Assembly (NCBI RefSeq): GCF_021026375.1
Contig: NZ_JAJNDB010000001.1
Span: 930,001-994,000 of the forward strand
Direction: 5' to 3'
DNA: 64,000 nucleotides
From: Actinomycetospora endophytica
Lineage (GTDB): Bacteria > Actinomycetota > Actinomycetes > Mycobacteriales > Pseudonocardiaceae
Shown here: in pieces, positions 48,286 through 51,062 of the stretch
Numbering within the stretch: the stretch's first letter is position 1
How the letters are laid out: every line of letters starts with the position of its first letter
The notes under the pieces: model-generated
The model's database searches: none
What the model was told of the DNA's origin: nothing
The model's input: the letters and a program-made list of their open reading frames with translations, nothing else
Translations under genes and position numbers: made by a program

Positions 48286-48306
48286 CTGCTGACGTCGAGT
48301 GTCAGC
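48286..48306. repeat. Partial copy of TCAGCGATG-family palindrome
   Basis: GCTGAC-GTCGAGT-GTCAGC: 6-base arms and the same 7-base spacer (one change) that joins the two copies at 6945-6997. It overlaps the stop codon of the pentapeptide-repeat gene. Confidence 0.6.
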
Positions 48307-49102
48307 CCCACGCCGACGGACGACGCACCCGCTCGGGCAACGTCGTCGTCGCGTCCCCCCGCGCGGCGGCCACCTGCGGGCCGGTGAGGAACAGCGTCCG
48401 ATCGAGCCCGGTACCCCGCAGATCCGCGCCGCGCAGGTCCGCCCCGAGCAGCTCGGCCCGCCCGAGGTCGACCCCGCGCAGGTCGGCGCCCATGAGCAGC
48501 GCGCCGCGCAGCGTCGTCCCGGCCAGCGCCCGCTTCGACGCCCGCCCGCTGCGCAGATCCCGCCCGACGAGGTCCGCCCGCGCATGACCCGGACCCGACG
48601 ACCCGCGCACCGCCTCGCTCACCCGCGCGAGCAGCTCGCCGACCTCGCCGCGCACCGCCCCGACCTCGACACCGTCCAGTGAGCCCTCCGCCAGCCCGGC
48701 CACCCGGGACGCCGCGGCCGCCACCTCGTCGCGCAGCCCGGCCGGCGCCTGCGCGACCAGCGGTTCCGTCAGGTACCAGAGGATCTCGTGCAACGGGCGA
48801 AGCACGGCGAACGCGTCGAACGCCTCCCGCGCCGGGCCGGGACCGTCGCGCCAGTCCGCGGTGACCCGCTGCCCGGCCCCGAAGCAGTCGAACGCCACGC
48901 AGCCCGGGAAGCCGCGGTCGGTCAGCTCGGCGTGGATCGTGCAGGGCGCGTCGGACCGCCCGGGCGCGGAGACCAGCAGGTTCGGGCACGGTGTCTCGGC
49001 CGGCTTGTCGAGCGCGAAGTCGGCCGAGCGCGCGAACGCGGGCGCGACGCAGCACAGCCCGGAGCAGCGCCCGCAGTCGGCCTCGAGCTCCAGCGATTCC
49101 AT
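48302..49102 (-). CDS. Pentapeptide-repeat protein with N-terminal Cys-cluster domain
   Basis: 266 residues from ATG 49102. N-terminus: CGRCSGLCC (C-x2-C-x3-CC) and further cysteines around 40, 55, 70 and 75 (GFPGCVAFDCFGAGQ), a pattern of YkgJ-type zinc/iron-chelating domains. The C-terminus has several pentapeptide repeats (LVGRDLRSGRASKRALAGTT, LRGALLMGADLRGVDLGRAE, LLGADLRGADLRG), a right-handed beta-helix. The combination is unusual; such proteins are called pentapeptide-repeat proteins. It is the downstream gene of a MerR-led unit, so metal handling is a sensible guess. A 2H phosphoesterase precedes it by 11 bases. Confidence 0.8.
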   Translation of the reverse strand: MESLELEADCGRCSGLCCVAPAFARSADFALDKPAETPCPNLLVSAPGRSDAPCTIHAELTDRGFPGCVAFDCFGAGQRVTADWRDGPGPAREAFDAFAVLRPLHEILWYLTEPLVAQAPAGLRDEVAAAASRVAGLAEGSLDGVEVGAVRGEVGELLARVSEAVRGSSGPGHARADLVGRDLRSGRASKRALAGTTLRGALLMGADLRGVDLGRAELLGADLRGADLRGTGLDRTLFLTGPQVAAARGDATTTLPERVRRPSAWG

Positions 49103-49113
49103 CACGTCCGACG

Positions 49114-49680
49114 CTAGGCGATCCCCGCGAGCGGCAGCTCCGCCACCACCCGCCACGAGTCCGGCGCCCGGGCCCCGGCCAGCAGGTGCAGCCGGTCCAC
49201 GGCCGCCTCCACCGGCAACGACGGCCGCAGCTCCGCCTCCGCCGCCCGCAGGGCCTCGAGCGAGGCGTGGCTGCCGTAACCGACCGTCAGGTGCGGGTGC
49301 GGCTCGTGCTCGCCGCCGTAGGGGACCTGCTCGGGGAACGACCGCCACACGCGGCGGGTCAGCTCCGCGAACGGGTCGGCGGGGGTCGGGGCGAGCCACA
49401 GGAGGTCCTCGCCGAACCACCCGGTCCCGGTGAACCGGCACGCGAACGGCGCCACCGGCGACACCGCCGCCCGCAGGGTGGCCACGGTCGTCGTCGTGAC
49501 CTCCGCCGGAGGCACGAAGGGATAGAGCACCGTGACGTGGGCCGGCACGCCGGCCGCCGTCGTGGGGTCGAGTGCACGACGGTGCTTCCCGACGGCGGGT
49601 TCGGCCGCCGGTATCAGGGCGAGCACCGCGGTCTCGGTCGCCGACGGGTCGATCACCGCACCATCGTCGTCGAGGAGCAC
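49114..49680 (-). CDS. 2'-5' RNA ligase-like 2H phosphoesterase
   Basis: 188 residues from GTG 49680 (a later GTG at 49656 also fits). Two HxTx motifs, HVTVLYPF and HPHLTVGYG, spaced as in the 2H phosphoesterase superfamily (LigT-like). Family members cleave or join 2',3'-cyclic or 2'-5' phosphodiesters in RNA or nucleotides. Cytoplasmic. It lies between the Cys-rich microprotein and the pentapeptide-repeat gene in the same orientation. A role in metal response is not obvious, so it may be a passenger. Confidence 0.88.
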   Translation of the reverse strand: MLLDDDGAVIDPSATETAVLALIPAAEPAVGKHRRALDPTTAAGVPAHVTVLYPFVPPAEVTTTTVATLRAAVSPVAPFACRFTGTGWFGEDLLWLAPTPADPFAELTRRVWRSFPEQVPYGGEHEPHPHLTVGYGSHASLEALRAAEAELRPSLPVEAAVDRLHLLAGARAPDSWRVVAELPLAGIA

Positions 49681-49721
49681 GTCCCGCGTCCCGGGGCCCT
49701 CGGGACACGGTTCGACCGACC

Positions 49722-49793
49722 TCAGCAGCAGCCGCAGGCGCTGCAGTCACAGGTCGGGTCCCCGCAGCAGGGACAGGCCGTCAGATCGAGCAT
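49722..49793 (-). CDS. Cys-rich 23-residue microprotein (metallothionein-like)
   Basis: 23 residues beginning MLDLTA; cysteines at 7, 9, 10, 15, 17, 20, 22 and 23 (motifs CPCC, CDC, CGCC), i.e. 8 of 23. The ATG at 49793 has GGGGGGAGG about 8 bases upstream, one of the best ribosome sites in the window, lying inside the last codons of the merR gene; the two genes overlap by 13 bases. That ribosome site, the overlap and the dense CxC/CC motifs argue for real translation and for binding soft metals such as Cu, Zn, Cd or Hg. No other function can be seen. It would be cotranscribed with the merR gene and controlled by it. Confidence 0.7.
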   Translation of the reverse strand: MLDLTACPCCGDPTCDCSACGCC

Positions 49794-50227
49794 GCGTCAC
49801 ACCTCCCCCCGGTCACTCGGTGGTCGGGCGGGCACCAGGTGCCGGGGGACGGGTCCGGGCACGTCGCGCTCGGCAACTGGTCGGCCATGGCCACGAGGTC
49901 GGCACGCAGCCGCGTGAGCCGCGCCAGCTCGGTGTCGATCTCGGCGATGCGCCCGCGCAGCAGGGGCGCCGCCGGCTCACACGGGCACGCTCCGGTGTCG
50001 CGGACGGCGAGGAGGTCGGCGATGTCGGCCAGCCGGAGGCCGAGCCGCTGGGCGCCGCGGATGAAGCGCAACCGGTCGAGGGCGGGCTCGCCGTAGCGGC
50101 GGTGCTCGCCGGTGGTGCGCTCGGGCGTCGGCATCAGCCCGACGCGCTCGTAGTAGCGCACGGTGTCGGGCCGCAACCCGGCCTCGCGTGCGAGCCCGGA
50201 GATCGTCAGCGTCGCGCTCTCGCCCAT
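49781..50227 (-). CDS. MerR-family heavy-metal-type regulator
   Basis: 148 residues from ATG 50227. MerR winged helix (LTISGLAREAGLRPDTVRYY, RVGLMPTPERTTGEHRRYG), then a coiled helix with CPCE (DTGACPCEPAAPLL, RIAEIDTELARLTRLRADLV) in the position of the metal ligands of CueR/ZntR/CadR-type proteins. The C-terminal tail carries further cysteines (TCPDPSPGTWCPPDH and GRCDACSI), giving six or more thiol ligands. It sits on a MerR-type promoter (see 50235-50266). A metal or thiol-reactive inducer is expected; which one cannot be told from sequence. Confidence 0.9.
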   Translation of the reverse strand: MGESATLTISGLAREAGLRPDTVRYYERVGLMPTPERTTGEHRRYGEPALDRLRFIRGAQRLGLRLADIADLLAVRDTGACPCEPAAPLLRGRIAEIDTELARLTRLRADLVAMADQLPSATCPDPSPGTWCPPDHRVTGGRCDACSI

Positions 50228-50234
50228 GACGCCG

Positions 50235-50266
50235 ACGTTAGGACCTGGAGTCGGGTCCAGGGTCAA
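50235..50266 (-). promoter_or_regulatory. MerR-type autoregulated promoter
   Basis: Reading leftward: -35 TTGACC (50261-50266), a perfect dyad CCTGGA-N6-TCCAGG (50244-50261), and -10 TAACGT (50235-50240), separated by 20 bases. Extended spacers with a central dyad are the hallmark of MerR-activated promoters. It starts the merR/microprotein unit. Confidence 0.75.
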
Positions 50267-50288
50267 GTCAGCGATGGCCATCGCTGAC
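50267..50288. repeat. 22-bp perfect palindrome of the TCAGCGATG family
   Basis: GTCAGCGATGG / CCATCGCTGAC, followed by ATCGGACGTCAG. It abuts the -35 box of the merR promoter and is the best-conserved copy. Confidence 0.8.
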
Positions 50289-50344
50289 ATCGGACGTCAG
50301 AACGGCGCCACCCACCCGTCGAGGATGGGCGGACGCCGTCGTGG

Positions 50345-50623
50345 CTACTCGGCCGCGGCACCGACCTCGATGTTGCGGTGCGCCGCGATCACCGAGGCCA
50401 ACGCCTGCGAGTTCTGGGCGACCGTGTCGTTGCGCTTTCCGGACACCCGCTCGACGGCCCCGTCGAGGAGCTCGGCGACCCGGGCGAGGTCGTAGAGCAC
50501 GCCGGCCGCCCAGTCCTGGGGGTCGGCATCTGCGGGGCAGAGATCCTGTCCATGCTGGTTGAGCTGCAGGAGCGCATCGACGGCGCCGTGGACGGGCGAG
50601 GGGCTGGTTTCGTCACTCGACAT
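50345..50623 (-). CDS. Small helical protein of unknown function
   Basis: 92 residues from ATG 50623 (GTG at 50632 is an alternative). Helical with hydrophobic heptads: GAVDALLQLNQHGQDLCP, DWAAGVLYDLARVAELLDGA, DTVAQNSQALASVIAAHR. No membrane segment; no family recognised. It lies upstream of the merR unit but is separated from it by 56 bases, the palindrome and the MerR promoter, so it is probably a separate unit. Confidence 0.65.
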   Translation of the reverse strand: MSSDETSPSPVHGAVDALLQLNQHGQDLCPADADPQDWAAGVLYDLARVAELLDGAVERVSGKRNDTVAQNSQALASVIAAHRNIEVGAAAE

Positions 50624-50666
50624 CCCGAACACTTGTACGGGATCGAACTACCTCACGCGAGACCGC

Positions 50667-51062
50667 TCACCGATCGCGGAGCGGTCTGCGCTCCGTGGCC
50701 AGGCCGTCTCCGCGCAGCGGACGTCGCCGGACCTCGGCCGCGACCACCACCGCCTCGGTCACCACGAGGAACACGATCGCGAGGTACAGGGGGCCCGCCC
50801 ACGCCAGCAGGGCGGCACCGATCGCGAAGAGGACCACCTTGAGGACGAGGCCGGGACGCGGCGGCAGCCGCCGGCGCGCCCGGGGCGCGAGCCACCGTCC
50901 CCACACCGCGACGAACACGCCCACCAGGACGACGACGAGGACGACCCGCCCGATCACCGAGTCCGGCAGCGCGATCCCGACGTGGACCAGCGCGGCGAGC
51001 ATCGCGAGCTCGGCGAGGAACACCCCGATCTCCAGGGCACCGGGGGACTCCGCGCTGGTCAT
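50667..51062 (-). CDS. YrdB/DUF2568-type four-helix membrane protein
   Basis: 131 residues from ATG 51062. Four membrane helices (GVFLAELAMLAALVHVGIAL; VVLVVVLVGVFVAVWGRWLA; LVLKVVLFAIGAALLAWAG; LAIVFLVVTEAVVVAAEV). WGRWLAPRARRRLPPRPGL in the loop between helices 2 and 3 is characteristic of DUF2568 (YrdB). Function unknown. Confidence 0.78.
   Translation of the reverse strand: MTSAESPGALEIGVFLAELAMLAALVHVGIALPDSVIGRVVLVVVLVGVFVAVWGRWLAPRARRRLPPRPGLVLKVVLFAIGAALLAWAGPLYLAIVFLVVTEAVVVAAEVRRRPLRGDGLATERRPLRDR

Follow-up and report, generated by a model that had tools for sequence, protein, structure and literature searches.

The locus considered here raises the question of whether a 23-residue open reading frame (ORF) that overlaps the end of a merR gene is itself a gene and, if so, what its product does in the cell. 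It lies in a stretch of 64,000 nucleotides from Actinomycetospora endophytica, hereafter the window, i.e., the whole piece of DNA that was analysed. The earlier note, made from the sequence alone, proposed a MerR-controlled miniature metallothionein. We consider it likely that the ORF encodes a miniature metallothionein-like peptide and closes, behind merR, a self-activated operon of two genes; its translation, its induction, the binding of metal and the identity of the ligand are inferred.

The ORF is observed on the minus strand (Table 1), and its translation, MLDLTACPCCGDPTCDCSACGCC, contains the cysteine motifs CPCC, CDC and CGCC, as had been described. Likewise, the reported overlap with merR was found to be exact, with 13 bases (49781–49793) common to the ORF and the end of merR. 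The 3′ end of the Shine–Dalgarno sequence GGGAGGTG is located 6 bases upstream of the ATG, and 7 contiguous bases match AAGGAGGTGA. Among the 651 short starts of the window (ATG or GTG, 10–45 aa) no longer match occurs, and only three starts, the microprotein included, reach 7 bases. The claim that this is one of the best ribosome sites of the window thus stands for short ORFs, to which the ranking was confined. At least five cysteines are encoded from two of the 651 starts, the microprotein with eight and one other ORF with 5 Cys in 34 aa and a 3-base Shine–Dalgarno site. With 8 Cys in 23 residues, arranged as CC, CXC and CXXC, the microprotein meets the criterion of size and cysteine content for a metallothionein in the broad sense.

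Table 1. Coordinates of the features at the locus and at related loci. Where a locus name precedes the numbers, they refer to that locus.
Feature	Position	Strand	Description
Predicted MerR operator/promoter of merR	50235..50266	-	TTGACC, 20-bp spacer with dyad (CTGGACCCGACTCCAGGTCC), TAACGT
merR, metal-type MerR regulator	49781..50227	-	148 aa from the conserved ATG; stop codon 49783-49781
Shine–Dalgarno sequence of the microprotein	49800..49807	-	GGGAGGTG, within the final merR codons
Microprotein gene	49722..49793	-	Translation MLDLTACPCCGDPTCDCSACGCC, 23 aa, 8 Cys, then stop
Hairpin 3′ of the microprotein stop	49684..49710	-	10-bp stem, possible terminator
2′-5′ RNA ligase superfamily gene	49114-49680	-	Pfam PF13563
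Pentapeptide-repeat protein	48302-49102	-	
Cadmium-family P-type ATPases	L162:2814-4823; L163:2878-4893	-; -	CSC for CPC in the likely membrane motif
Cys-rich slot proteins, 60-98 aa	L142:1970-2263; L147:1166-1408; L153:1232-1420; L183:1125-1304	; -; -; 	Behind remote MerRs
Thioredoxin-like proteins	L138:1944-2219; L154:1899-2165		Additional CXXC; preceded by MerRs that share the operator type

The hairpin 3′ of the microprotein stop is no better than in shuffled sequences (z −0.33). The 2′-5′ RNA ligase superfamily gene begins around 40 bases past the stop, and two genes downstream of the microprotein a pentapeptide-repeat protein is encoded, with CGRCSGLCC in its probable N-terminus. A search of Rfam over positions 48900–50700 of the window gave no match.

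The merR gene probably starts at the ATG at 50227, to judge from the start common to its relatives; a longer frame of 169 aa, from 50290, passes through the operator. Its product carries a CPC motif, a CX7C loop and a C-terminal CDAC, and both Pfam MerR_1 and MerR-DNA-bind score above the gathering cut-off. The four metal-binding cysteines (CPC and the CX7C loop) are invariant in an 11-row alignment, and in the named survey described below the loop Cys is kept at 69 of 74 loci with a peptide and is Leu at the other 5. The nearest solved relatives of the protein are 4ua1, CadR and mercuric MerR. It falls below every cut-off of the NCBIfam equivalogs for mercury MerR, ZntR, CadR-PbrR and CueR.

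The predicted operator of merR contains a dyad which we take to resemble those of the ZntR and CadR operators. In the window, the −35 element lies 39 nt from the merR start codon. The operator 28-mer (50239–50266) has a single match in the genome at up to 3 mismatches, and its reversed control has none. Upstream of merR, the motif was found at 72 of the 74 named loci with a peptide vs 0 of the 6 without it; the two misses are L080, a one-base variant by eye, and L114, which remains unexplained. The majority operator of the 72 loci reads TTGACCTTGGAG, five loose bases, TCCAAGGTCTACCGT, within a layout of −35 TTGACC and −10 TANNNT separated by a 20-bp spacer. At 71 of the 72 loci the first in-frame start of merR lies 38–40 nt from the −35, so that the predicted transcript begins at or next to the start codon, which suggests, by inference, a leaderless merR transcript.

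A search of 200 genomes of the family for this operator, allowing at most 1 mismatch, found 22 sites in 21 genomes, of which 19 are merR-peptide operons. The remaining three comprise two sites before another MerR-like gene and one before a remnant of such a gene. This gene (L190 and L206, with the remnant at L203) encodes a distinct protein, about 245 aa long and extended at its C-terminus, and the same operator stands 38–39 nt upstream of its GTG start. The count of 22 is a lower bound, because the pattern misses divergent operators (TCACAGG for TCCAAGG). Within this lower bound, no pump was seen under the operator in a peptide-bearing genome.

Conservation of the peptide was observed at the level of the genus. 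The window MerR is present at 1e-30 in 6 of 18 Actinomycetospora genomes, and in all six the ORF is in place behind merR, open over 23 aa and with 8 Cys. Stop codons or lost cysteines in close relatives that keep merR, named in advance as the outcome that would refute the idea, are thus absent. The segment GGGAGGTGTGACGCATGCTCGA is identical in the six sequences; in one species (L010/L052) one Cys has moved, giving CDGCSCGCC for CDCSxCxCC and still 8 Cys. A profile of the peptide gave strong matches in the same six genomes only. The other 12, one of which is only 59% complete, yielded two weak matches (E 0.05 and 0.24).

The substitutions observed in the genus are of the coding type. Over codons 6–23, pS is 0.30 and pN 0.11 (pN/pS 0.37), third codon positions account for 10 variable columns, first positions for 4 and second positions for 3, and 3 of the 7 invariant Cys codons use both TGC and TGT. 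Ungapped identity of the six sequences is 86% in the ORF vs a mean of 37% over the 60 bases past the stop, so that the peptide gene looks like the operon end. The statement that the ORF stops within the unit could not be upheld in the sense of a conserved unit. Substitutions and divergence together form the pattern of a translated gene closing the operon.

The search behind merR homologues that the earlier note recommended was run on the best 80 of 386 MerR relatives (the named survey). Within a range reaching from 90 bases ahead of the merR stop to 60 past it, the script compared the ORFs of 10–45 aa by their starts and kept the one richest in Cys. A small Cys-rich peptide was found behind merR at 74 of these 80 loci and was absent from 6. 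The peptides are 11–32 aa long (median 20) with 4–9 Cys (median 6), and they consist of 36% Cys (the first Met excluded), 17% Asp and 10% Gly. They start with ATG (63) or GTG (11); counted from the base that follows the merR stop, the starts lie between 35 bases before and 32 past it, and 73 of the 74 have a Shine–Dalgarno match of at least 5 bases. As a control, the script was applied to both strands of the same 80 loci at the ends of all open frames no shorter than 120 codons, 3077 in number, many of them non-genes and some overlapping. A density of 4 or more Cys per 25 aa was reached at 22 of these vs 74 of the 80 merR ends, and with the stricter limit of at least 5 Cys the numbers are 4 of 3077 vs 73 of 80.

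Examples of the peptides are MRNDDWCDCDCCGSGCC from Amycolatopsis, MCPCCDDPTCDGSCCDGECC from Thermomonospora, MDDCCTCCDCC from Lentzea and MNDCCDDPTCPPESCGCGC from Citricoccus. A further one, MHDCCEDPMCPPELCGCGC, is encoded on two Rhodococcus plasmids, where no gene is listed (the gene table is known to be incomplete). When 24 peptides are aligned, 2 of 41 columns are invariant, both Cys. The smallest members have 4–6 Cys in 11 aa, which is low for a stable cluster. Such an Actinomycetota-wide class, hypervariable in sequence, was not foreseen by the earlier note. On the MerR tree, the presence of the peptide requires 2 changes, the operator 4 and the loop Cys 4. A sign test of co-loss on this tree was not significant, with too few pairs. 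As the absence of the peptide amounts to only 2 tree changes, its covariation with the operator and the loop Cys does not represent many independent events.

A second survey covered 297 genomes of the family; its counts cannot be added to those of the named survey, since many species are common to both. The MerR was found at 1e-25 in 54 places in 49 genomes, and all 54 were examined. A Cys-rich ORF of the microprotein kind is present at 38, and all 38 have the operator. Eight places have neither peptide nor operator, and the loop reads WR where others have WC. One (L183) combines the operator with a 60-aa Cys-rich protein, six belong to other MerR types as judged by their low scores, and one (L176) was unreadable by the script. 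Strong matches of the peptide profile over the 297 genomes are confined to the six Actinomycetospora genomes, and the weak ones range from E 0.014 to 0.1.

The operation of the proposed two-gene unit can be described as follows. MerR would occupy its own promoter, in which the 20-bp dyad spacer separates TTGACC from TANNNT. A thiophilic ion, i.e., Cd, Zn, Pb or arsenite, with Hg possible, would bind to the cysteines of the CPC motif and the CX7C loop, and the ion-bound MerR would untwist the over-long spacer and turn on merR together with the peptide. Translation of merR would probably begin at a leaderless start and that of the peptide at the strong Shine–Dalgarno sequence inside merR. From this pairing it is inferred that the peptide should outnumber the regulator. 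The thiolates of the peptide would then take up the ion, and the cytosol would be buffered. Selection would hold the place, the ribosome site and the dense cysteines (CC, CXC, CXXC), not a fixed sequence, with Asp, Gly, Thr, Pro and Glu as the residues between them.

As to the ligand in this mechanism, the genomic contexts point in two directions. Close MerRs without the peptide are found on Streptomyces pFRL4, on Mycobacteroides pGD22-1 and on a Mycobacterium contig (L060). In all three, R replaces the loop Cys and the same operator faces a divergent P-type ATPase. The ATPases of pFRL4 and pGD22-1 exceed the NCBIfam cut-off of the cadmium family, but near DKTGT they carry CSC, and CPC is absent. 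At these peptide-less sister MerRs a pump stands in for the peptide. An ATPase like that of pFRL4 occurs at 4 of the 80 named loci, two without the peptide (L060 and L109) and two with it (L061 and L125).

The second context is that of arsenic genes, and it gives rise to an alternative in which the ion sensed by MerR is arsenite (or antimonite) and the thiols of the peptide bind arsenite, in support of neighbouring ACR3/ArsC/ArsO islands. Homologues of ACR3 or ArsC lie at 17 of the 80 named loci, all 17 with the peptide, on either side of it and on either strand. ArsC identity is at least 63% in 15 of them and 40–42% in 2. ACR3 itself is present at 10. In 60 genomes of one family, 48 copies of ACR3 were counted; at an estimated one copy per about 9 Mb, the 756 kb of locus DNA should contain only around 0.1 copies. 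The curated cut-offs were passed by all 3 ACR3 proteins scanned, by 1 of 2 flavoproteins for ArsO and by 2 of 2 proteins for the ArsR/SmtB family; the ArsC proteins scanned were below the NCBIfam cut-offs. Arsenic neighbours (ACR3, ArsC-type low-molecular-weight phosphatases, ArsO-like and other flavoproteins, ArsR) were seen at L070, L079, L085, L101, L105 and others, and likewise at L118, L123, L125, L127 and L128.

This alternative remains possible, even if we doubt it. Neither ACR3 nor ArsC was found in the locus DNA examined for 57 of the 74 peptide loci, the window has neither gene, and no ACR3 was detected at 1e-60 in its genome. Much of the set of 17 comes from related genera (Geodermatophilus/Modestobacter and the Micrococcaceae), and the sister MerRs face an ATPase of the cadmium family. 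As the two contexts disagree, Cd/Zn/Pb and arsenite both remain candidate ligands. The reading as a MerR-controlled miniature metallothionein is supported by the six Actinomycetospora genomes, the 74 named loci, the operator at 72 of them and its uniqueness in the genome. What does not follow is that the ligand is a metal cation, since it may be arsenite.

A third survey took in more remote MerRs. The MerR profile at 1e-25 matched in 56 of 396 genomes of the phylum, and 30 loci among the matches listed, the window's own included, were inspected. A peptide is present at 16 of the 30 (one counted at 45 aa), and at three of the 16 (L133, L144 and L150) it is fused in frame to MerR. These fusions retain the internal ribosome site and the ATG (the genome of L133 has one contig listed), and they give the strongest indication from sequence that the Cys segment is translated and goes together with MerR. 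Three further loci of the 30 (L142, L147 and L153) have Cys-rich proteins of 63–98 aa in the slot of the peptide; no Pfam or NCBIfam model scored above its cut-off on these or on the slot protein of L183. Two others (L138 and L154) have thioredoxin-like proteins there. At L139 the slot holds a 19-aa ORF with 2 Cys, at L137 the operator is present but a comparable ORF is lacking, and 7 of the 30 loci are other MerR types in which the operator is absent. The operator pattern was recognized at 13 of the 16 peptide loci (missing from L140, L143 and L149) and also at 5 of the 14 without a peptide (L137, L138, L139, L147 and L154).

The fusions and the constant adjacency to merR would suit a peptide that mainly serves as a partner of MerR, i.e., a metal donor, stripper or off-switch, and not as a bulk sink. 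The absence of a second operator from the genome and the members with only 4 Cys are also in line with such a role. We nevertheless regard it as unlikely, because the peptides drift fast and share no motif other than Cys across genera, unlike a protein–protein interface. The two functions can also be combined in one peptide, acting both as an ion sink and as an off-switch that strips MerR, in a self-activated homeostatic unit across Actinomycetota built around a hypervariable thiol peptide. In this combination, which is put forward only as a speculation with rather low chances, the window's genome shows no pump under the operator. Nothing but the position in the operon, the ribosome site and the number of Cys would then preserve the function, and the family would thus be invisible to homology search.

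A different kind of role is that of a polycysteine attenuator, in which the speed of the ribosome over the Cys codons reports the cysteine supply and controls what lies downstream. Mycobacterial Cys-rich short ORFs with such a role have been reported (Canestrari 2020, as cited in PMC9094748). We find this improbable for the ORFs considered here. The microprotein is a distal gene, past whose stop the DNA diverges, and it has a strong Shine–Dalgarno sequence, whereas the title of Canestrari 2020 names leaderless ORFs. The requirement that the ORF stand upstream of one conserved regulated gene is not met at the surveyed loci, where the recurring neighbours, the arsenic genes, are not one co-directed downstream gene. 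Moreover, hairpins are enriched past the peptide stop at the 74 named loci, with a mean z of −1.76 (29 of 74 below −2) and a longest stem of 9.3 vs 6.5 in shuffled sequences. Past the peptide at L073, L076, L085, L089, L090, L097, L098, L105 and others, hairpins whose loop has a GCGCC core, e.g., CCGCCGAGCGCGCCGGCGG, were noticed by eye; they recur across several families and may be a type of terminator.

Small size and Cys density would also fit the precursor of a modified (RiPP-type) peptide, which is very improbable given that no modification enzyme was found among the 22 neighbouring open frames scanned and that the operator and MerR point to metal. The idea that the ORF arose by chance, from the high GC content of the DNA or from repeats of TGC, has for it the short, low-complexity members and the use of TGC in 459 of 499 Cys codons, and is hardly credible; it is refuted, as far as sequence allows, by the excess over the control ends, the ribosome sites, the mixing of TGC and TGT with Cys retained and the pN/pS ratio.

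As a metallothionein-like peptide, the microprotein can be compared with several known systems. The bacterial metallothioneins SmtA, BmtA and PmtA have around 50–80 aa and a partly folded part, and SmtA is controlled by an ArsR-type repressor. They share with the microprotein class the small size, the abundance of Cys, a metal-sensing regulator and the role of a presumably induced sink, but the class differs in its length of mostly 11–32 aa, its MerR activator and the absence of Pfam or NCBIfam matches. The copper metallothionein of the fungus Neurospora, with 25 residues and about 7 Cys, is similar in size and Cys density; it is eukaryotic, linked to copper and a single sequence family, and no homology is claimed. 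Mycobacterial MymT is likewise a small actinobacterial Cys-rich metal sink, but it is longer (about 53 aa), binds copper and is under a different type of regulator.

Database searches agree with the separate position of the class. No Pfam or NCBIfam model, those of SmtA/BmtA included, matches 26 distinct peptides (that of the window, 24 relatives and one more), a test weakened by their short length. The window peptide had no match in the PDB, viral contigs or plasmids, and its DNA had none in phage records. Searches of the open-licence PMC literature brought up no description of the class, to judge by the openings of abstracts; subscription papers, e.g., an in-silico survey of actinobacterial metallothioneins (Schmidt 2010), are mostly outside that literature. 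A functional parallel is offered by Pseudomonas aeruginosa, in which CadR, a MerR-type Cd/Zn regulator, activates the formerly unannotated small zinc-ribbon protein Zrd (PMC12301328). Zrd is also a small Cys protein under a MerR-type regulator. According to the same source (PMC12301328), its gene is flanked by opdD and PA1026, and the protein contains two CXXC-N10-CXXC ribbons; the members of the microprotein class are far shorter, and their genes overlap merR or lie directly next to it. The mycobacterial polycysteine ORFs are equally actinobacterial, very short and rich in Cys, but, as far as the citing paper reports them (Canestrari 2020, cited in PMC9094748), they are leaderless attenuators located upstream, whereas the microprotein is distal, led by a Shine–Dalgarno sequence and placed behind MerR. 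The class is metallothionein-like in composition and setting; profiles do not assign it to the known families of bacterial metallothioneins, and what defines it is its position, not its sequence.

Many actinobacteria thus have, directly behind the gene of a metal-sensing regulator, an overlooked gene for a Cys-rich peptide of mostly 11–32 aa, whose probable role is to sequester toxic metal or arsenic. Few metallothionein-like peptides of bacteria may be smaller. If this is true, natural bacterial metallothionein-like peptides would extend down to 11 residues, and more than 70 natural variants would be at hand to ask how few thiols suffice for a working sink. The gene class would be recognisable by place and composition, not by homology. 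It would also provide the missing output for "orphan" metal-type MerR regulators of actinobacteria. For Frankia, which was outside this analysis, a study states that none of its metal-related merR genes shares an operon with genes for metal resistance (PMC4531530), and an unannotated peptide gene behind merR would look like just this pattern.
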